Assembly: GCF_014905095.1 (NCBI RefSeq)
Contig: NZ_CP041165.1
Span: forward strand, 620,001-684,000
Source of the DNA: Sulfurimonas marina
Lineage (GTDB): Bacteria > Campylobacterota > Campylobacteria > Campylobacterales > Sulfurimonadaceae
DNA: 64,000 nt
Reading direction: 5' to 3'
Both the position numbers and the translations under genes were made by a program. Of this stretch, positions 32,640 through 42,772 are shown in pieces. How positions within the stretch are numbered: position 1 is the stretch's first letter; every line of letters begins with the position of its first letter. The notes under the pieces are model-generated. The model made no database searches. It saw nothing but the letters and a program-made list of their open reading frames with translations, and had not been told where the DNA came from.

Positions 32640-33374
32640 TTGTTTAAAGACTATACTTTAGAGATTTTATATCAAGATGAGCATCTTGTAGCTATAAATA
32701 AGCCCAGCGGGCTTTTGGTTCACAAGTCTATGATCGATAGACACGAGATCTATTACGCGATGAAGATGTTACGTGATCAAATAGGGCAATGGGTTTATCC
32801 GATCCACCGTCTTGATAAACCTACAAGCGGAGTACTACTCTTTGCCTTAGATAAAGAGAGTGCTCGCCTTTTAAATGAACAGTTCCGAGAACGTTCTCCT
32901 CAAAAAACTTACATAGCAGTAGTCCGTGGTTATCTAGAAGACGGTGTTATCGACTATCCGCTCAAAGAGAAGCTGGATAAGATTGCAGATAAGGATGCAA
33001 AAGAGGATAAAGAGGCACAAGAGGCGATTACGGAGTATAAAGCTCTTGATCAAATAGAGCTGCAAGTTAGTGTCGGGAAGTATGATACTGTTCGCTACTC
33101 TTTAGTAGAACTACATCCACAAACAGGTCGAAAACATCAACTCCGTCGCCATATGAAACATATTTCTCATCATATTTTGGGAGATACGAAATATGGACGA
33201 GGTGAGCATAACAAGTTTATCCGAAAAGAATACAATGTGCATAGATTATTATTGCATTGCTGCTCTTTGCAATTTGTGCACCCTTATAGTGGAGAAGTAA
33301 TCACTTTAAAAGCAGATTTAGATGATACATTTACAAATTTACTAAAAGAATTTAATTGGAGTATAAATGAGTAA
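32640..33374 (+). CDS. RluA-family tRNA pseudouridine synthase (TruC-like)
   Basis: A 244-residue synthase with the catalytic motif HRLDKPTSGVLLFALDKESARLL; the Asp attacks uridine. EILYQDEHLVAINKPSGLLVHKS and HPQTGRKHQLRRHMKHI are also typical. Length and the absence of an S4 domain favour TruC (tRNA U65) over the rRNA enzymes. The start is TTG at 32640, directly after the helicase stop; it overlaps pepN by eight bases. Confidence 0.85.
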   Translation: MFKDYTLEILYQDEHLVAINKPSGLLVHKSMIDRHEIYYAMKMLRDQIGQWVYPIHRLDKPTSGVLLFALDKESARLLNEQFRERSPQKTYIAVVRGYLEDGVIDYPLKEKLDKIADKDAKEDKEAQEAITEYKALDQIELQVSVGKYDTVRYSLVELHPQTGRKHQLRRHMKHISHHILGDTKYGRGEHNKFIRKEYNVHRLLLHCCSLQFVHPYSGEVITLKADLDDTFTNLLKEFNWSINE

Positions 33375-35928
33375 CGAAGTACAAGAGATATTTTTAAAAG
33401 ATTATAAAAAACCGAGTTTTACTATTGAGAGTGTAAATCTTACATTTGAGCTTTTTGAAGAGGAAACTAATGTAACAAATATTATGAAGTTTGAAAAGCT
33501 TGATGAAAGTGCAGACCTTGTTTTAGATGCACAGGAACTGGAGCTTAAAGAGGTGGTTCTTGACGGTGAGGTACTTGGAAGTGATCGTTATACACATGAT
33601 GAGGAAACGCTTACTATTTCAAATGTACCACAGGAGTTTACTCTAGAGATCAGAAACAGAATCTATCCGCAAAAAAATACGGAACTAGAAGGTCTTTATA
33701 AATCTGGAGATATCTTCTGTACACAGTGTGAGCCTGAAGGGTTCCGTAGAATTACACCGTACCTCGATCGTCCCGATGTAATGAGTATTTTTACAACGAC
33801 TGTAATTGCAGATCAGAAGAAGTACCCGATCCTTTTAGCAAATGGAAACAAGGTCCATTGTCATGAAAGTTTTAACACACGTCACGGGGTAACTTGGCAC
33901 GATCCACATCCAAAACCTTCATATCTTTTTGCCCTTGTAGCAGGAGATTTAGACTTTATAACAGACAGTTTTGTAACTGCCAGCGGGAATGATGTTGAGC
34001 TAAATATTTATGTAGATAAAGGCAATAGCGATAAAGCAGACCACGCAATGAAAAGTTTAATCAATGCTATGAAGTGGGATGAGGAAAAATACGGTCGTGA
34101 GTATGACCTTGATATCTATAATATCGTTGCCGTAGATAGTTTTAATATGGGAGCTATGGAGAATAAAGGGTTAAATATATTTAATTCTGCATATGTACTT
34201 GCAGATGCAGATACTGCAACAGATGCAAACTTTATGGGAATTGAATCGGTGATCGCACATGAGTATTTTCATAACTGGACCGGAAACAGAATTACGTGTA
34301 GAAACTGGTTTCAGCTTACACTAAAAGAGGGACTTACTGTATTTCGTGATCAGTGTTTCTCGGCAGATATGAACTCTAGTGAAGTACAACGCATACAAGA
34401 TGTGAAAGCGTTAAGAGAGCGTCAGTTTGTAGAAGATGCATCTCCTACGGCTCATCCGATTCAGCCAAAGTCATATATCTCTATGAATAACTTCTATACT
34501 GCAACGGTATACGAAAAAGGTGCTGAAGTTATCAGAATGCTTCATACTCTTTTAGGTGAAGAGAACTATAGAAAAGCGACAGACCTTTATTTTGAAACGT
34601 TTGACGGTCAAGCGGTAAGGACAGATGACTTTTTATGGGCTATGAAAGAATATGGAGAGTTTGATCTGGAGCATTTTAAACTATGGTACGATCAAAGCGG
34701 GACACCAAGTTTGGAAGTGGAAGAGAACTATGCAGATGGCAAATATACTTTAACATTGACACAAAACGTTCCAAATAAAGTAGATGGTTCTTTGCAAAAA
34801 GCTATGTACTTTCCATTAAAGATTGCTCTTATGGACAAAACAGGTGCAGTAGCCGAGGAGAAAATGCTTATTATCTCAAAAGAGAGTGAGTCTTTTATGT
34901 TCGAGGGTTTTGAAGAGAAACCGGTTCTCTCAATTAACAGAGATTTCTCAGCACCTGTTATCATCAAACACCAAGATGTTGATTTCGCATTTTTAATGCA
35001 GCATGATACAAACAGTTTTACAAAGTATGAAGCTGCACAAGAGTTTGCTATCTCTATACTTTTTAAACTTATGGAAGATATTGAGAGTGACATAAGTGAA
35101 TACTTAGAAGCTTTTGGAGCTCTGTTGGAGTTAGATACTGATCTTTCATATAAAGCACTTTTACTTGAGCTTCCATCAATCTCTACACTGATGCAAAAAC
35201 AAGATGTGGTAGATTTTGAACCATTATATAAGGCAAAAGATAAACTCTCTTATGAAGTTGCTAAAAAGTATGAGGCGAAATTGTTAAAACTTTATTTTCA
35301 AAACCATGAACCTCTAAATAGCGCTCTCGATAGTAAAAGCATTGCTAAACGTGCATTGAAAAACAGAGTGCTATCTCTTTTAAGTGCTTTAGAGTCAAAA
35401 GAGATAGCTGCTGTAGCTAAAGAACAGTATGAACACTCGTTAACCATGACAGATAGAATTACAGCACTTGATGTTTTAGAGTCAATTGATGCAGAGTTAA
35501 GTGAAATAGCTTTTAATGACTTTTATAACAGGTACAAAAACAACACACTTGTAATGAATAAATATTTTGCACTTTTAGCAGCTTCACCGAGAGAGGGTGT
35601 ACTTGATCGAGTGATGGCACTGCAAAATGATGAGGTGTATGATGAAAAAGTTCCAAATCTTGTACGCTCATTAATAGGTGTTTTTGCAAGAAACTATAAA
35701 TACTTTCATGCTAAAGACGGATATGGGTATAAATTTTTAAGTGATAAGATTATTGAGATAGATAAAATTAATCCTCAGATGGCCTCAGCTCTTTCAGGTG
35801 CATTTAAAATCTACCCAAAAATGATTGAATCTAACAAAAAATTGATGAAAGCGACGTTAGAATGTATCGTTTCTACACAAGGAATATCAAAAAATACATT
35901 TGAGATTGTGAGTAAAATTTTAAAGTAA
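33367..35928 (+). CDS. pepN: Aminopeptidase N (M1 family)
   Basis: An 853-residue zinc metallopeptidase. The substrate-recognition motif GAMENKG and the zinc-binding HEYFHNWTGNRITCRNW (H298, E299, H302, with Glu further on) are intact, and the C-terminal half has the four-helix DUF3458/PepN layout. It removes N-terminal residues from peptides in the cytoplasm. Length fits bacterial PepN (about 850-880). It overlaps the pseudouridine synthase by eight bases. The 170 bases downstream are AT-rich, without a clear terminator, and contain the sqr promoter region. Confidence 0.93.
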   Translation: MSNEVQEIFLKDYKKPSFTIESVNLTFELFEEETNVTNIMKFEKLDESADLVLDAQELELKEVVLDGEVLGSDRYTHDEETLTISNVPQEFTLEIRNRIYPQKNTELEGLYKSGDIFCTQCEPEGFRRITPYLDRPDVMSIFTTTVIADQKKYPILLANGNKVHCHESFNTRHGVTWHDPHPKPSYLFALVAGDLDFITDSFVTASGNDVELNIYVDKGNSDKADHAMKSLINAMKWDEEKYGREYDLDIYNIVAVDSFNMGAMENKGLNIFNSAYVLADADTATDANFMGIESVIAHEYFHNWTGNRITCRNWFQLTLKEGLTVFRDQCFSADMNSSEVQRIQDVKALRERQFVEDASPTAHPIQPKSYISMNNFYTATVYEKGAEVIRMLHTLLGEENYRKATDLYFETFDGQAVRTDDFLWAMKEYGEFDLEHFKLWYDQSGTPSLEVEENYADGKYTLTLTQNVPNKVDGSLQKAMYFPLKIALMDKTGAVAEEKMLIISKESESFMFEGFEEKPVLSINRDFSAPVIIKHQDVDFAFLMQHDTNSFTKYEAAQEFAISILFKLMEDIESDISEYLEAFGALLELDTDLSYKALLLELPSISTLMQKQDVVDFEPLYKAKDKLSYEVAKKYEAKLLKLYFQNHEPLNSALDSKSIAKRALKNRVLSLLSALESKEIAAVAKEQYEHSLTMTDRITALDVLESIDAELSEIAFNDFYNRYKNNTLVMNKYFALLAASPREGVLDRVMALQNDEVYDEKVPNLVRSLIGVFARNYKYFHAKDGYGYKFLSDKIIEIDKINPQMASALSGAFKIYPKMIESNKKLMKATLECIVSTQGISKNTFEIVSKILK

Positions 35929-36098: not shown

Positions 36099-37568
36099 AT
36101 GGCAAGATTAGTCGTACTAGGTGGTGGTGTTTCAGGTCATACTGCAGCTACATTCGCCGCAAAATGGTTAGGTTCAGCACACGAGGTTGTGGTTGTGACT
36201 CCAAATGCAAAATGGAACTGGATTCCGTCAAACATTTGGGTTGGTGTTGGTGAGATGTCAAAAGAGGAAGTAACTTTTGAATTAGCACCGGTTTATGCAA
36301 AGGCGGGTATCACATATAAGCAAGCAAAAGCTGTTTCTATCAACCCTGAAGGAAGCGAAACAAGTGATAAGCCATTTGTAACTGTTGAATATACAGGACA
36401 AGATAAAGTTGGTCAGTCTGAAGATGTAGAGTATGATTATATAATCAATGCTACTGGTCCAAAACTTAACTTTGGAGCAACTCCGGGTCTTGGTGAGGGA
36501 AGTGAGATTGGAGAGCATACAGTATCTGTATGTACGGCAGATCATGCAGTTCATGCATCTGAAGAACTGGCAAAATGTATCGAAAAGATGAAAAACGGTG
36601 AGCGTCAAAAGTTCTTAATCGGAACAGGTCACGGTTTATGTACATGTCAAGGTGCTGCATTTGAATATATTTTCAATATTGAGCATGAGTTAAATAAAGC
36701 CGGTGTTCGTGATATGGCAGATATGAAGTGGATCTCAAACGAGTCATTCTTAGGTGACTTTGGAATGGGTGGACTTCATATGAAAGTTGGCGGTTATGTA
36801 GTAAGTTCTAAACTTTTCGCTGAATCATTATATGCTGAAAGAGGTGTTGAATGGTTAATTGGTGCACACGTATCAAACATTGAAAGTGGAAAACTTGACT
36901 ATGAACTTCTTGATGGAAGCACTGGTGAAGAAGAGTTTGACTTTGCAATGCTTATCCCACCGTTTGCAGGTGTAGGACTAAAAGCATACAACAAAGCTGG
37001 TGAAGATATTACAGATGTAGTATTTGCTCCAAACGGATTTATGAAAGTTGATGCTGATTATACTGCTAAGCCTTATGCTGAGTGGAAAGCAAGTGACTGG
37101 CCAAGAACTTACCAAAACCCTACATATCCAAATATGTTTGCTGCTGGTATCGCATTTGCGCCACCACACCTTATTTCTCAGCCTATGAGTTCTCCAAATG
37201 GAACTCCGATCAATCCAACTCCACCAAGAACTGGTATGCCTGCAGGTATCATCGGTAAAGCGGTAGCACACTCTGTATGTGACCTTATCACTAAAGGTGA
37301 AGGTGCTCACTTACATGAAGCTTCTATGGCTGAAATGGGTGCAGCTTGTGTTGCATCAGCTGGTAAAGGTTGGTTTGACGGACAAGCAGCTGCTATGACT
37401 GTTTATCCTGTTGTTCCTGACTTTGAAAAATATCCTGGAACAGGACGTGATACAGACTATACGTTTGGTGAAATTGGTCTTGCAGGTCACTGGATTAAAC
37501 ATATTCTTCACTATATGTTTATTTACAAAGCGAAGCTCAATCCGGGCTGGACAATGATCCCAGAATAA
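36099..37568 (+). CDS. sqr: Sulfide:quinone oxidoreductase
   Basis: A 489-residue two-dinucleotide-binding flavoprotein. The FAD motif VVLGGGVSGHTAATFAA opens the protein; YDYIINATGPKLNFGATPGL is the second glycine-rich region. Candidate redox cysteines are C145, C181 and C183 (GHGLCTCQGAA), and the C-terminus has an amphipathic, membrane-associating segment (HILHYMFIYKAKL). It would pass electrons from sulfide to menaquinone. The sqr subtype cannot be set by eye. A very strong AAGGGAAGG ribosome-binding site precedes it and the codon usage is that of a well expressed gene. A flavocytochrome-c-like role is the main alternative. Confidence 0.8.
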   Translation: MARLVVLGGGVSGHTAATFAAKWLGSAHEVVVVTPNAKWNWIPSNIWVGVGEMSKEEVTFELAPVYAKAGITYKQAKAVSINPEGSETSDKPFVTVEYTGQDKVGQSEDVEYDYIINATGPKLNFGATPGLGEGSEIGEHTVSVCTADHAVHASEELAKCIEKMKNGERQKFLIGTGHGLCTCQGAAFEYIFNIEHELNKAGVRDMADMKWISNESFLGDFGMGGLHMKVGGYVVSSKLFAESLYAERGVEWLIGAHVSNIESGKLDYELLDGSTGEEEFDFAMLIPPFAGVGLKAYNKAGEDITDVVFAPNGFMKVDADYTAKPYAEWKASDWPRTYQNPTYPNMFAAGIAFAPPHLISQPMSSPNGTPINPTPPRTGMPAGIIGKAVAHSVCDLITKGEGAHLHEASMAEMGAACVASAGKGWFDGQAAAMTVYPVVPDFEKYPGTGRDTDYTFGEIGLAGHWIKHILHYMFIYKAKLNPGWTMIPE

Positions 37569-37583
37569 TAGAAGGAGTATAGA

Positions 37584-37745
37584 ATGAAACATGAAGAAAA
37601 AAACTTTGGAAAAAGTAGAGACTTTAACTTAACTATGATTCCCGGTAAGTTTGCAAGAGCTATGAGAACATGTGTTATTTATCAGTTTCTTAGGTTTTTA
37701 GTTATCAATATTAAGATGCTAATTGTAGTGAGCAAAAGTCACTAA
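37584..37745 (+). CDS. Small membrane-associated protein downstream of sqr (53 residues)
   Basis: An ORF too short for usual length cut-offs, with a strong ribosome-binding site GAAGGAG (37571-37577) seven bases before its ATG and only 15 bases after the sqr stop. The first half is polar (MKHEEKNFGKSRDFNLTM); the second half is hydrophobic and basic (CVIYQFLRFLVINIKMLIVV), able to form one membrane helix. It ends just before a perfect 12-bp hairpin. I do not recognise it. Its place suggests a membrane anchor or stability factor for SQR, which is inference. Confidence 0.6.
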   Translation: MKHEEKNFGKSRDFNLTMIPGKFARAMRTCVIYQFLRFLVINIKMLIVVSKSH

Positions 37746-37750
37746 ATATT

Positions 37751-37782
37751 TGCTATCTAAGCTATATTTGGCTTAGATAGCA
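37751..37782 (+). terminator. Perfect 12-bp hairpin after sqr and its small ORF
   Basis: TGCTATCTAAGC (37751-37762) pairs perfectly with GCTTAGATAGCA (37771-37782) around TATATTTG. No T-tract follows, so it may act as a 3' stabiliser or a factor-dependent stop rather than a classical terminator. Confidence 0.6.
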
Positions 37783-37804: not shown

Positions 37805-38617
37805 ATGGTAAAAGAGTTAATAAAATATCCAACTCCGCTGAGTGTTGAGTATGGAATCAATGTACGTGTATTTGATGAGAAATTATTTTCCTTAATAGAT
37901 GATCTTAAAGATACTATAAATGAAAATAATTTAAAGGCGTTATCTGCTTTTCAAATAGGAAGTTATTTAAATGTAATCGTTTTAAAAAATGAAGATGGTA
38001 GTTTTTTAGAACTTATAAATCCTAAAGTGATCGCTCACAGCGGTGAAGTTACTACTCAAGAGAAAACAACATATTATGATGATTTAAGTGCCAATGTAGT
38101 GCGCCATGAAAAGATAAGTGTTATATATCAAAACAGAGCAGGTGAAAACCAAGTTTTAAAAGCTGAAGATGATTTAGCAATTACACTGCAGAGAAAAATT
38201 GACTATACTTTTGGTTCGACTTTTTTAAATAAGCTCTCAAAAGAGGAAAAGAAAAGATTTGAAGAAAGTTTGGAATTTGGTTCTGATATAGGGTATGAGA
38301 ACTATTGTCCTACAACGTTTTTCAAAGATAAAATTATAAAATTTATTAATATTACTATCGCTTTACTTTTTTTCGTTTTTTTAATATCATTCTTTATAGA
38401 AGATAAGAAAATATTATCTGATGTTTGGCAATATGAACTATATACATCTTATTTTATAGGGATAGTTACTCTTATATACATCGTTTACGGTAGATATGAA
38501 GGGTTAAAATATAAAACATGTACAAGTTGTCAAATAGGTAATATTTTAGGAACGGCATTTATCGCAATGGTAAAACTATCTGCAGTGATGACACTTTCTT
38601 ATATCTTCGTAAAATAA
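37805..38617 (+). CDS. Degenerate peptide deformylase fused to a membrane domain
   Basis: A 270-residue protein. Residues 1-150 follow the peptide deformylase fold from end to end: YPTPLSVEYGINV, a GLAAxQ-like NLKALSAFQIG at 42-52, LELINPKVIAHSGEV, and a QHExDH-like LQRKIDYTFGSTFLNKLS at 128-145. All catalytic residues are gone: the HExxH motif reads R130-K131-I-D-Y134, and the EGCLS Cys is absent (YYDDLS). From about residue 178 there are three membrane helices and a CTSC pair. It cannot be an active deformylase; a binding or sensor role is possible. A hybrid kinase starts 13 bases downstream and probably shares its transcript. Confidence 0.75.
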   Translation: MVKELIKYPTPLSVEYGINVRVFDEKLFSLIDDLKDTINENNLKALSAFQIGSYLNVIVLKNEDGSFLELINPKVIAHSGEVTTQEKTTYYDDLSANVVRHEKISVIYQNRAGENQVLKAEDDLAITLQRKIDYTFGSTFLNKLSKEEKKRFEESLEFGSDIGYENYCPTTFFKDKIIKFINITIALLFFVFLISFFIEDKKILSDVWQYELYTSYFIGIVTLIYIVYGRYEGLKYKTCTSCQIGNILGTAFIAMVKLSAVMTLSYIFVK

Positions 38618-38630
38618 AGATATTAAAGAA

Positions 38631-40922
38631 ATGGATATGCCTGAAAATATTCAATCACTACATAAATGTAAAGACAAGTTTTCTGAGTCAAAGTATAATA
38701 TATTGCAACAATGGGTTGCATATGAAACTCCTACAGAGATTTTACAACTTCACGAAATAGATAAAGACTATTTTATTGAAACATACGGGAGTGGTGTATT
38801 TGACTACTTTATGGGTGTAATCTCCGGAGAAGTACAAATAGGAAACTGTCCTGTTATGCAGGATTTCTTAGCTTACTTAAAAAACAGAGAGATCAGTGCT
38901 GATGAGCTTTTTGAGCTGTGCAGTCACTTTAGACGCTCAATGATCGATTTCTCTTACGATGCTAAGATTAATTCGAAAGAGGTTTTCGATTCAATCTCTT
39001 ATATTTTTGACCAAAACTTCCGCGGTATATTAAAATACTATACAGATGTGATTTTTCAAAAACTTGTTGATGCAAGGCAAGAAGCTCTTGTCGCTTCACA
39101 GGCAAAAGAGTATTTCTTATCGAACATGTCACATGAGATACGAACACCGTTAAACGCAGTCCTCGGCTTTGTAAATTTGCTCTTAGAGGATGAGCTTCCC
39201 AAAAAACATAGAAACTATTTAGACATTATATTAAACAGCGGAGAGAACCTTTTAAGTATTATTAACGATATTTTGGACTTTTCAAAACTTAGAAGTGGAG
39301 AGTTCCATATTGAACCAAAAGTGTTCTTTTTGCATGATGAGATCTCGCATACAATGGAGTTGTTTGTTGCAAGTGCGAAGATGAAAAATATTACGATCAC
39401 TTCATTTATAGATCCAAAAATACCACTTCAGTTAGAAGGGGATATATTAAGAATAAAACAAATACTCTCTAACTTTTTAAGTAATGCTATTAAGTTTACA
39501 CCTGTAGACGGACATATTCATATAGAAGCGAACTGTAGAGACAAGGTCTTAAAAATTTCTGTTGAAGATAACGGTATAGGAATCTCTCAAGAGGATAAAG
39601 AGAATATCTTTTTAGCCTTTGGACAGGCTCAGTTTGCAAAAGAGAGTAGAAGTGACGGAACAGGACTTGGACTCTCCATATCATGTCAGTTAGCAGAGCT
39701 TATGGGTGGAGATGTCGGAGTAGAATCGGAAATGGACGAGGGAAGTCGTTTTTGGATGGAGATCCCGGTTGACATTCATACTGACCAGCACCTCTTTTTT
39801 GAAGAGGTGGAGAAACTTAAAAACTTTAAAATTGCTGTATATGCAAAAAATTATTCTCTTAACTATAAACACAAATCATTTATTAACTATGCCGAGGTTT
39901 TTAATATGGATATCGCTATAGTTAACTCTTTAGACCTGGAATACGACATATGTATATTTTTACATGAAGAGTTAATTTCAGAAGAGATGAGTAAGATTAT
40001 AAAGTCTGATAAAAAGTTTATTAGTATCGTTTCTCAAGAGTGTGACATATATGATAATTATATGCATGTAAATACTATCTCTTTCCCTCTATATTGTGAA
40101 AAACTAAAAGTCGCTTTTGAGGAGCTCTTATATCCTCAGGAATACCTAGAACACAGAAAGAAAATCTCTAAACACTTTAAAGGGAAAATTTTAGTAGCTG
40201 AGGATAATGAGGCTAATCAGGAACTCATCAAAATAATACTTTCAAAATACGGACTAGAGTTTGATATTGTAAATAATGGGCTTGATGCTATAGAGTTGTA
40301 CAAAATCAATCATTATGACCTTATTTTGATGGATGAGCAGATGCCAAAAATGGATGGCACGCAAGCGGTTGAAAAGATAAGAGAGTTTGAAAAAGAAAAC
40401 TCTTTAGAGCATACACCTATATCAGCACTTACGGCAAATGTTTTAAAAGGTGCAAGAGAAAAAGGGCTTCTCCATGGATATGATGCATTTTTAGGAAAAC
40501 CTATAGTATTAAAAGATTTAGAAAATCTTTTTGATACATTTTTAGAACCCGATTATACTCATTTATCATCAGAGACAAGCAATAGGGTACCTGATGTCAA
40601 GATAGTTGGTTTAGACTCCAAAGCGCTGACAAAAGAGTTGATGTTAAGTATTGATGAATTAACAATGTTACTCGATCTCTTTGTTAGTAAAATGCAGCAG
40701 GTTCTCCCGGAACTACAAGAGGCTATAAAAGACAAAGATTTTTATACGATAGCAAAAAAAGCGCATAATATTAAAGGTTCTAGTGGTAACTTTAGAATAG
40801 AGTTCTTACAAAAGACAGCAAGTGAAATGGAAGAGATGGCAAAAAAGGAAGATGCTTCATATGATTATGAAGAGAATTTCATAAAAATAAAAGAAGCCAT
40901 AGAAGCGATAAAAATTTTATAA
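38631..40922 (+). CDS. Soluble hybrid histidine kinase with receiver and Hpt domains
   Basis: A 763-residue protein with no membrane helix. Residues 1-145 form a helical sensor region I cannot name with certainty (VAYETPTEILQLHEIDKDYF, GNCPVMQDFLAYL). Then come HisKA (H168 in SNMSHEIRTPLN), HATPase_c (DNGIGISQED, GTGLGLSI), a degenerate receiver-like segment (about 385-500), a true receiver with Asp at about 568 (LILMDEQMPKMDG) and an Hpt domain with His at about 711 (KKAHNIKGSSGNF). The complete relay implies a separate output regulator; the convergent OmpR-type gene is the nearest candidate. The upstream membrane pseudo-deformylase may supply input. Confidence 0.88.
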   Translation: MDMPENIQSLHKCKDKFSESKYNILQQWVAYETPTEILQLHEIDKDYFIETYGSGVFDYFMGVISGEVQIGNCPVMQDFLAYLKNREISADELFELCSHFRRSMIDFSYDAKINSKEVFDSISYIFDQNFRGILKYYTDVIFQKLVDARQEALVASQAKEYFLSNMSHEIRTPLNAVLGFVNLLLEDELPKKHRNYLDIILNSGENLLSIINDILDFSKLRSGEFHIEPKVFFLHDEISHTMELFVASAKMKNITITSFIDPKIPLQLEGDILRIKQILSNFLSNAIKFTPVDGHIHIEANCRDKVLKISVEDNGIGISQEDKENIFLAFGQAQFAKESRSDGTGLGLSISCQLAELMGGDVGVESEMDEGSRFWMEIPVDIHTDQHLFFEEVEKLKNFKIAVYAKNYSLNYKHKSFINYAEVFNMDIAIVNSLDLEYDICIFLHEELISEEMSKIIKSDKKFISIVSQECDIYDNYMHVNTISFPLYCEKLKVAFEELLYPQEYLEHRKKISKHFKGKILVAEDNEANQELIKIILSKYGLEFDIVNNGLDAIELYKINHYDLILMDEQMPKMDGTQAVEKIREFEKENSLEHTPISALTANVLKGAREKGLLHGYDAFLGKPIVLKDLENLFDTFLEPDYTHLSSETSNRVPDVKIVGLDSKALTKELMLSIDELTMLLDLFVSKMQQVLPELQEAIKDKDFYTIAKKAHNIKGSSGNFRIEFLQKTASEMEEMAKKEDASYDYEENFIKIKEAIEAIKIL

Positions 40923-40929: not shown

Positions 40930-41682
40930 TTACTCTTCAATATAATAGCCGATTCCGGAAGCATTTTTAATGATATCAGTTTCAAGCTTGTTTCTTAGTC
41001 TCCAGACAAGCGTACGGACACTGTTTTCTGTAGCACCTTTATCTTCCCATACATAGTTAACAGCTTGTTCAAACGTTACAACAGAACCGAGCTGTGCAAC
41101 TAAAAGTCTTAAAAATGCGTTTTCTTTTTTTGTAAGCTTTAATTTTTTGCCTTGATAAAATGTTTCACAGATACTAATATCAAGGTGATAGTTGTCTCCA
41201 AAAGGGACAATAGGCTCATCAGAAGAGCGTTTTGCATAAAGCATCTTTTCGAGATTCATTTTATCGACTTTAAGTGTATCGATATCGTTTTTTCTCTCAT
41301 TCTCTACCTGGAATTTAAACAGAGCCATTTGAATGGTAGCATGAAGTGAATTTGGGTCAAAAGGTTTTACTATATATCCATAAGGTTCTGTAACCTTTGC
41401 TCTTGTAATGATTTCATCATCCGTGTAAGAAGTGAGGTAGATAAATGGAATGTTGTAATTTTCTTTTATATATTTGGCAAGTTCAATTCCATCATCGCTC
41501 TCTTGTAGAGAGATATCAATAATAACTACACTAGGACGATGAGTAGAAATTTTAATTTTTGCCTGTTCAATGTTATCACATACACCGACTACACTGTAGC
41601 CATGCTTTTGTAAAGATATGTTGAGATTAAGTGAAGTTATTTCATCATCTTCAACAACTAGTATTTTATCTTTAGTATTCAT
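40930..41682 (-). CDS. OmpR/PhoB-type response regulator
   Basis: A 250-residue regulator. The receiver (ILVVEDDEITSLNLN, VVIIDISLQESDDG with the phospho-accepting Asp, YIVKPFD) covers about residues 5-122. A linker leads to a C-terminal winged helix (LKLTKKENAFLRLLVAQLGSVV, VRTLVWRLRNKLE, GIGYYIEE). The linker is longer and more charged than usual. Convergent with the hybrid kinase (7 bases apart), it is a plausible partner. Confidence 0.9.
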   Translation of the reverse strand: MNTKDKILVVEDDEITSLNLNISLQKHGYSVVGVCDNIEQAKIKISTHRPSVVIIDISLQESDDGIELAKYIKENYNIPFIYLTSYTDDEIITRAKVTEPYGYIVKPFDPNSLHATIQMALFKFQVENERKNDIDTLKVDKMNLEKMLYAKRSSDEPIVPFGDNYHLDISICETFYQGKKLKLTKKENAFLRLLVAQLGSVVTFEQAVNYVWEDKGATENSVRTLVWRLRNKLETDIIKNASGIGYYIEE

Positions 41683-41818
41683 CTTTACACTTCCTATATC
41701 AAAAAAAAATGATTATTATGTGATAACACAATTTATAAAATTATAATATAACTTTTTTTTATTTACAATACTTAATCTAAATAAGTGTAAAATTTGTTAC
41801 AAAATGATACTAACAGAT

Positions 41819-41824
41819 TATAAT
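41819..41824 (+). promoter_or_regulatory. Candidate -10 element (TATAAT) for msrBA
   Basis: A consensus TATAAT 22 bases before the chosen ATG at 41846. The position rules out the in-frame ATG at 41804, which would lie upstream of the transcript start. Confidence 0.55.
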
Positions 41825-41845
41825 ATATTCTCAAAAGGATTGATA

Positions 41846-42772
41846 ATGCGCCTTTTTATGACGTTTTTATTGGTAGTATATACAAGTATTGCAGCTGCAA
41901 ACGAAGTAGAAAAATTACCGAAATTACAACTAAAACCTTTAACACAAAAAGAAAAATCAATAATAATTTATAAGGGTACGGAGAGACCTTTTAGTGGAAA
42001 ATATTATAATTTTGATCAAAATGGAACATATTATTGCAAACAATGCGGTGCAAAACTTTTTGACTCTACAGATAAGTTTCACAGTGGATGCGGTTGGCCA
42101 AGCTTTGACGATGCGATCGAAGGAGCTGTTAAAAAAGTAAAAGATGCTGACGGTAGAAGAGTGGAGATCTTATGTGCAAGATGTGGAGCACATCTTGGAC
42201 ATGTTTTTGAAGGGGAAGGGTTTACAGAGAAAAACAGAAGATATTGTGTTAATTCTATCTCTTTAGATTTTCAAAAAGCTACTCAGAGTACGATCAAAAA
42301 AGTATATTTTGCCGGAGGGTGTTTCTGGGGAGTAGAGTATTATCTTGAAAAACAAAAAGGGGTACTTAGTGTAGTGTCCGGTTATATGGGTGGAGAAAAG
42401 CCCAATCCAAGCTATAGAGACGTTTCTCGTGGAGATAGCGGCTATCTTGAGATCGTAGAAGTTACTTATGATTCAACTCAGGTTGACTATGAGACCTTGG
42501 CAAGACTATTTTTTGAGATCCACGATCCGACACAAAAAGATGGGCAAGGACCAGATATTGGCAAGCAGTACCGTTCGGCTATTTTTGTCTCAAATAAAAA
42601 GGAGAGAAAAATAGTGCAAAAATTGATCAATCTTTTAGAGTTAAAAGGGTATGATGTCGCTACAACTATTCGAGATAAAAAAGAGTTTTATGAGGCTGAA
42701 AAGTATCATCAAGACTATTATGACAGAAAAGGGAAAAAACCGTATTGTCACGGTTATGTAAAAAGATTTTAA
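41846..42772 (+). CDS. msrBA: Exported MsrB-MsrA fusion, peptide methionine sulfoxide reductase
   Basis: About 308 residues from ATG 41846, chosen because AAAAGGA (41833-41839) precedes it and the product then starts with a signal peptide (MRLFMTFLLVVYTSIAAANE). The first half is MsrB, with zinc-binding cysteines (YYCKQCGAKLF, CARCGAHLGHVF) and the catalytic RYCVNSISL. The second half is MsrA, with the catalytic Cys in FAGGCFWGVEYYLE. Together they reduce both stereoisomers of methionine sulfoxide. The signal sequence points to repair of periplasmic proteins, recalling Neisseria PilB, but with MsrB first. Confidence 0.9.
   Translation: MRLFMTFLLVVYTSIAAANEVEKLPKLQLKPLTQKEKSIIIYKGTERPFSGKYYNFDQNGTYYCKQCGAKLFDSTDKFHSGCGWPSFDDAIEGAVKKVKDADGRRVEILCARCGAHLGHVFEGEGFTEKNRRYCVNSISLDFQKATQSTIKKVYFAGGCFWGVEYYLEKQKGVLSVVSGYMGGEKPNPSYRDVSRGDSGYLEIVEVTYDSTQVDYETLARLFFEIHDPTQKDGQGPDIGKQYRSAIFVSNKKERKIVQKLINLLELKGYDVATTIRDKKEFYEAEKYHQDYYDRKGKKPYCHGYVKRF

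Follow-up and report, generated by a model that had tools for sequence, protein, structure and literature searches.

In peptide deformylases (PDFs; PF01327), such as the Helicobacter pylori enzyme (2ew5), the cysteine of the EGCLS motif and both histidines of the HExxH motif are the metal ligands, and the glutamate of HExxH is the catalytic residue. Inactive deformylase homologues of other kinds (type 3 forms) exist. Regulation of a protein kinase through binding by a protein of this fold has been described in Bacillus subtilis, where the minor peptide deformylase DefA inhibits the tyrosine kinase PtkA by binding in the context of oxidative stress, according to the excerpted text of PMC11194573. 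The protein described here has its fold and scaffold residues in common with the H. pylori PDF, but it lacks every metal ligand and the catalytic glutamate and adds a membrane domain with three invariant cysteines; unlike DefA it is dead and membrane-bound, and its steady genomic partner is a sulfide:quinone oxidoreductase (SQR). The SQR types of Sulfurimonas have been reviewed (PMC4584964, PMC7952632), and the flavoprotein at our locus belongs to the same SQR family; the portions of these two reviews available to us name no pseudo-deformylase or microprotein partner of SQR. Our literature search found no paper joining peptide deformylase with Sulfurimonas or with sulfide-quinone, and peptide deformylase, SQR and sulfide oxidation appear in unrelated contexts in the available portion of PMC8614886. 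Among the matches listed for dead or inactive deformylase, as represented by titles and the opening lines of abstracts, no membrane-anchored dead form is described. What is new in this pseudo-PDF is its anchor and its genomic partner, the fold being already known.

The window analyzed here is a stretch of 64,000 nucleotides from Sulfurimonas marina. The pseudo-PDF gene (37805-38617, + strand) starts with ATG and encodes 270 amino acids, the first 157 of which (37805..38275) make up the pseudo-deformylase domain as delimited by PF01327, conservation and predicted fold. The Pep_deformylase profile matches residues 3-149 with an E value of 6.2e-28 and a score of 97.8 bits, where the cut-off is 22.8, so the resemblance to PDF is far above chance, and the score against the NCBIfam peptide deformylase equivalog (TIGR00079) is 68.5 bits, short of its cut-off of 103.95. 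When aligned with the H. pylori PDF, EGCLS becomes EKTTY and QHEIDH becomes QRKIDY, such that the Cys, His, Glu and His of the active site are replaced by Thr88, Arg130, Lys131 and Tyr134. These comparisons bear out the initial annotation, which had assigned roughly 150 N-terminal residues to a deformylase domain with the Cys, both His and the Glu all replaced. The search for a genuine def gene that it had proposed located one in the source genome at G000:C1:2192379-2192834, away from the pseudo-PDF locus, which rules out that the pseudo-PDF is this gene relocated.

Conservation was counted in the 58 best-scoring loci from two genome searches made without any active-site pattern, which yielded 54 distinct proteins; this set was used because the contig scan behind our named-record set (80 of 162 relatives kept) included QRKIDY-like and CxSCQxGN-like patterns. 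It had been raised that a different alignment might restore the active site in relatives, yet none of the 54 proteins restores Cys88, His130, Glu131 or His134, and a misaligned intact active site is thereby ruled out. The replacements are themselves retained, with Thr88 present in 52, Arg130 in 51, Lys131 in 51 and Tyr134 in 50 of the 54, and so is the PDF scaffold, since Glu86, Arg100, Gln129, Asp133 and Gly137 occur in all 54 and Gln50 in 53. Across 78 close pairs, which have sequences in common, the median dN/dS is 0.078 in the PDF domain (maximum 0.197) and 0.11 in the membrane domain; the pseudo-PDF is under purifying selection. In a tree of 88 rows, all 62 pseudo-PDF rows fall on one side of a single branch (support 100/99), while EGCLS and HExxH are retained in all 18 def genes from genomes of the order and in the 8 viral PDFs included. 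The latter represent eight of nine PDF loci on viral contigs (L121 was left out), and the matches stop by residue 156 in eight of the nine and at residue 176 in one (L120). The tree contains long branches, that of L030 among them, and does not settle the position of the pseudo-PDF clade among deformylases. A decaying pseudogene is ruled out by the absence of internal stops in the full-length copies listed, the low dN/dS and the single clade. The protein is most simply explained as a pseudoenzyme, a PDF domain that lost its metal site once and gained a three-helix membrane anchor. The near fixation of the four replacements could also be accounted for if the protein were still an enzyme, performing a different, metal-free chemistry through Thr88, Arg130, Lys131 and Tyr134. 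However, Arg130 and Lys131 are each missing from three of the 54 rows, and we know of no metal-free enzyme with the PDF fold; we consider this explanation highly improbable.

Structure prediction, which the initial annotation had proposed for comparison with active deformylase, recovered the PDF fold. The AlphaFold2 model, built from 78 sequences (the window protein and 77 of the 80 named loci, with L087, L098 and L102 omitted), has a mean pLDDT of 83.5 and a pTM of 0.52, a value at which the arrangement of the domains relative to one another is not reliable. Deformylases head the Foldseek results, with 2ew5 at an E value of 1.6e-11, and structural alignment to this H. pylori PDF gives a Z score of 17.4 and an rmsd of 3.4 over 143 aligned residues (model residues 16-159). 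The C-terminal membrane domain (residues 158-270; 38276..38617, + strand) comprises a Cys168-Pro-Thr motif, three helices (173-195, 201-235 and 240-268) and a Cys239-x-Ser-Cys242-Gln-x-Gly-Asn246 motif before the last helix. Hydropathy agrees with the modeled helices, in keeping with the three membrane helices and CTSC pair (residues 239-242) that had been noticed at the outset; the third conserved cysteine, Cys168, had been overlooked. Cys168, Cys239, Cys242, Gln243 and Asn246 are invariant in the 54 pseudo-PDF relatives. Pfam has no match to this domain, and the single NCBIfam row lies far under its cut-off. When the domain was searched alone in 298 genomes of the phylum, matches came from 53, almost always within a pseudo-PDF, together with contig-edge fragments and a chance-like match of 25 residues in G237, in an ORF that we take to be RlmN-like. 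The exception is G177, which encodes a stand-alone relative of 98 amino acids behind SQR (L192:3551-3847, + strand) that keeps the CTGC motif and has lost CPT, so the membrane domain accompanies SQR even without the PDF domain. With respect to topology, the loop between the second and third helices, which holds CxSCQxGN, carries a mean of 1.72 Lys/Arg compared to 0.65 in the loop between the first and second. By the positive-inside rule this is weakly consistent with the PDF domain and the three conserved cysteines lying on the cytoplasmic face, though the segment preceding helix 1 carries no net positive charge (means of 2.41 Lys/Arg and 2.77 Asp/Glu) and the topology is therefore only suggested.

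The steady partner of the pseudo-PDF is the gene for a 489-residue flavoprotein of the SQR family (36099..37568, + strand), assigned through its best solved relative. That relative is the sulfide-quinone reductase 3hyv (E 2.3e-38), and cysteine falls on cysteine at CTA(D/E)HA, at the (T/S)CxG site and at the C-terminal (A/I)C(V/I)A; these are the three conserved SQR cysteines, Cys124, 156 and 347 in A. aeolicus. A search of the source genome with this SQR at E values up to 1e-5 returned no match besides itself. Upstream of it lies a large ORF (33367-35928, + strand) that reads as aminopeptidase N-like, and the cluster of this ORF comprises the window and 48 of the 80 named loci.

In a sample of 199 genomes of the order, taken from a larger group and scored for SQR orthologues at E values up to 1e-60, the pseudo-PDF is present in 64 and SQR in 113, and every one of the 64 pseudo-PDF genomes has SQR (two-by-two table 64, 0, 49, 86). 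The Fisher p value of 3.3e-21 is uncorrected for relatedness and, as the sampled genomes are related, overstates their independence. The two genes are adjacent and in the same direction in 49 of the 64 genomes, 206-574 bases apart. In the named-record set of 80 loci, mostly titled Sulfurimonas, SQR lies directly upstream of the pseudo-PDF in 59 of the 73 with enough upstream DNA, and 50 loci have SQR upstream and a hybrid kinase downstream together. Where loci of further families within the order were read, the arrangement SQR - pseudo-PDF is mostly kept, though not in most of family f7, in part of which the two genes are not adjacent. The initial annotation had proposed a search for orthologues and their neighbors; the orthologues were found, but the constant neighbor is SQR and not the kinase that it had emphasized. 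This steady partnership is what places the pseudo-PDF with the SQR module. The dependence is not mutual, since 49 of the 113 SQR genomes have no pseudo-PDF and SQR thus does not need it.

Fourteen named loci lack SQR and adjoin AhpD-like, DsrE-like, MerR, pirin, YceI, ribonucleotide reductase or other genes; the seven of these present in the tree all belong to one subclade (99/99) that represents a second pseudo-PDF paralogue. This paralogue is seen at L112:1713-4308 and also in L089, L105 and L196, with MerR, AhpD-like and, except in L089, DsrE-like genes beside it. Separately, L108, a metagenome-assembled genome titled Helicobacter pylori PMSS1, has a Sulfurimonas-like SQR and pseudo-PDF, and its title is probably wrong. 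That the second paralogue and most f7 copies lie elsewhere is what one would expect of a genomic hitch-hiker, carried with the sulfur-oxidation locus and unrelated in function to SQR. The co-occurrence in 64 of 64 genomes over eight sampled families, 49 of them with the genes adjacent, and the stand-alone membrane domain behind SQR in G177 speak against such a passenger, and we regard it as improbable.

Directly behind SQR lies an ORF for a 53-residue microprotein (37584-37745, + strand), identified from the reading frame and a profile search and absent from the initial annotation. By eye it has a good ribosome-binding sequence, and its C-terminal part is one hydrophobic stretch (Kyte-Doolittle peak 1.95) beside an Arg-Thr-Cys motif; neither Pfam nor NCBIfam gives a match. 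A profile built on 74 of the same 118 SQR loci against which it was run finds a homologue immediately following SQR in 117 of them; every hit is on the plus strand and the minus strand has none, and the sole miss (L211) has a similar but divergent stretch. The microprotein is a candidate for a general SQR accessory in the order, and no SQR-associated small protein of this kind is described in what the matches listed in our literature search present. Second SQR copies in G039 and G208 (L227 and L228) are followed by a variant microprotein, after which L227 encodes a membrane protein of five helices and a protein containing CxxC. Between the microprotein and the pseudo-PDF is a 12-bp inverted repeat (37751..37782), judged by counting stems against shuffles: 37 of 61 loci have a perfect stem of at least 8 bp shortly before the pseudo-PDF, whereas 40 shuffles gave 0.9 such loci on average and never more than 3. 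Many loci share the position of the hairpin but not its sequence, and the hairpin suggests separate expression of the microprotein and the pseudo-PDF.

The microprotein and SQR genes just upstream, and the almost complete conservation of the scaffold residues, would suit a nascent-chain chaperone or assembly factor. Such a factor would bind, in its dead cleft, the formyl-methionine terminus of SQR, of the microprotein or of some other membrane protein and help that protein to insert into the membrane or to assemble. In the portion of PMC5454389 available to us, the signal recognition particle is described as shielding membrane proteins from N-terminal processing, which speaks for this idea. 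Peptide binding by the cleft is putative, however, and an Arg and a Lys now occupy the places of a metal ligand and the catalytic Glu, and we consider a chaperone role rather improbable.

Downstream of the pseudo-PDF stop, after 13 bases exactly as first annotated, begins the neighbor characteristic of the window's family, a hybrid histidine kinase (38631..40922, + strand) with an N-terminal domain of its own followed by HisKA, HATPase, receiver and Hpt domains. Convergent to it is a response regulator with a Trans_reg_C output domain, assigned by Pfam (40930..41682, - strand). Further along, an ORF at 41804-42772 (+ strand) reads by eye as a fused methionine sulfoxide reductase that has a hydrophobic stretch at its N-terminus. 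The kinase directly follows the pseudo-PDF in 53 of the 74 named loci with enough downstream DNA, mostly with 20 bases or fewer between them, or with an overlap that arises from mechanical start choice. No orthologue of it stands beside the pseudo-PDF in the loci read from f4, f6, f7, f9, f17, f18 and f22, and a universal kinase partner is accordingly ruled out; one f9 locus (L164) has a different kinase-regulator pair upstream of SQR and on the other strand, 29% identical and without the input domain of the window's kinase. Conversely, orthologous kinases stand behind SQR with no pseudo-PDF between them in L199, L200 and L236 (input-domain identity 46-49%); two of these genomes (G204 and G124) have no pseudo-PDF, whereas the third carries one at another place. 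The link to the kinase is genuine, but only local, as the adjacency is confined, in the loci read, to the window's family.

The input domain of the kinase (38631-39080) is well conserved, with a mean column identity of 75% over the first 150 residues in 32 sequences, for which 31 of the 55 orthologues, those with a short input domain, were aligned. It has no Pfam match above cut-off, carries invariant Cys73 and Cys97, and is predicted to be all-helical (pLDDT 91.7). The folds nearest to this prediction are globins and RsbR-type globin-like domains, with a best Foldseek E value of 0.05 and, for 3zta, a Z score of 13.3 and rmsd of 2.7 over 127 aligned residues, within the range that helical models can reach by chance. 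As the kinase has its own sensor-like domain, the case for the pseudo-PDF as its only sensor is weakened. Together with the loci in which either gene occurs without the other beside it, this leaves unsupported the initial suggestion that the pseudo-PDF is specifically the sensor of the kinase. In its original form, with the pseudo-PDF sensing formyl-peptides or nascent N-termini and reporting them to the kinase, that suggestion draws on the retained scaffold and on the kinase adjacency in Sulfurimonas, but that link is limited to one family and the constant partner is SQR; we judge it very unlikely. A related but less specific possibility is that the main role of the pseudo-PDF is to dock at the membrane on the hybrid kinase, inhibiting or activating it in response to the redox or sulfide state, much as DefA acts on PtkA in the available text of PMC11194573. 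The frequency and tightness of the adjacency favor such a regulator, as does the hydropathy of the kinase, which has no membrane segment of its own (peak 1.23). With the kinase missing beside the pseudo-PDF in the other families read, with L199, L200 and L236 having the kinase behind SQR but no pseudo-PDF next to it, and with the conserved sensor-like domain that the kinase itself carries, this remains an unlikely, though serious, alternative.

The explanation that we favor, although with somewhat less than even confidence, is that the membrane-anchored pseudo-PDF has been kept as an accessory of the SQR module, where it serves or regulates SQR. As to mechanism, we infer that the PDF domain and the three cysteines would face the cytoplasm at the membrane surface, and that the former substrate cleft may hold a peptide rather than deformylate it, with an end of SQR, the microprotein or some further partner as the most natural candidates. 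Cys168, Cys239 and Cys242 could respond to sulfane sulfur or to the redox state arising in the vicinity of SQR. For the window's family, the state of such a membrane complex may be signaled to the kinase next to it and to the response regulator, and the kinase pair in Sulfurimonas is probably the output of the SQR/pseudo-PDF module. A bolder version, which we put forward as a doubtful proposal, is that SQR, the 53-residue membrane microprotein and the pseudo-PDF form a complex. In it, a dead fold that once processed N-termini would have become the subunit through which respiratory sulfide oxidation senses sulfane sulfur or redox state, and in Sulfurimonas a two-component system would be wired to it. 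We acknowledge that co-occurrence and gene order do not show contact, and that the non-adjacency in f7 and the second paralogue away from SQR mean that the partner of the pseudo-PDF could be something else.

Our findings describe a nearly universal processing enzyme that has been turned into a conserved membrane-bound pseudoenzyme, and they indicate two candidate SQR accessory proteins in sulfur-oxidizing bacteria of vents and sediments. This suggests that an old enzyme fold has been reused to serve or regulate sulfide oxidation.
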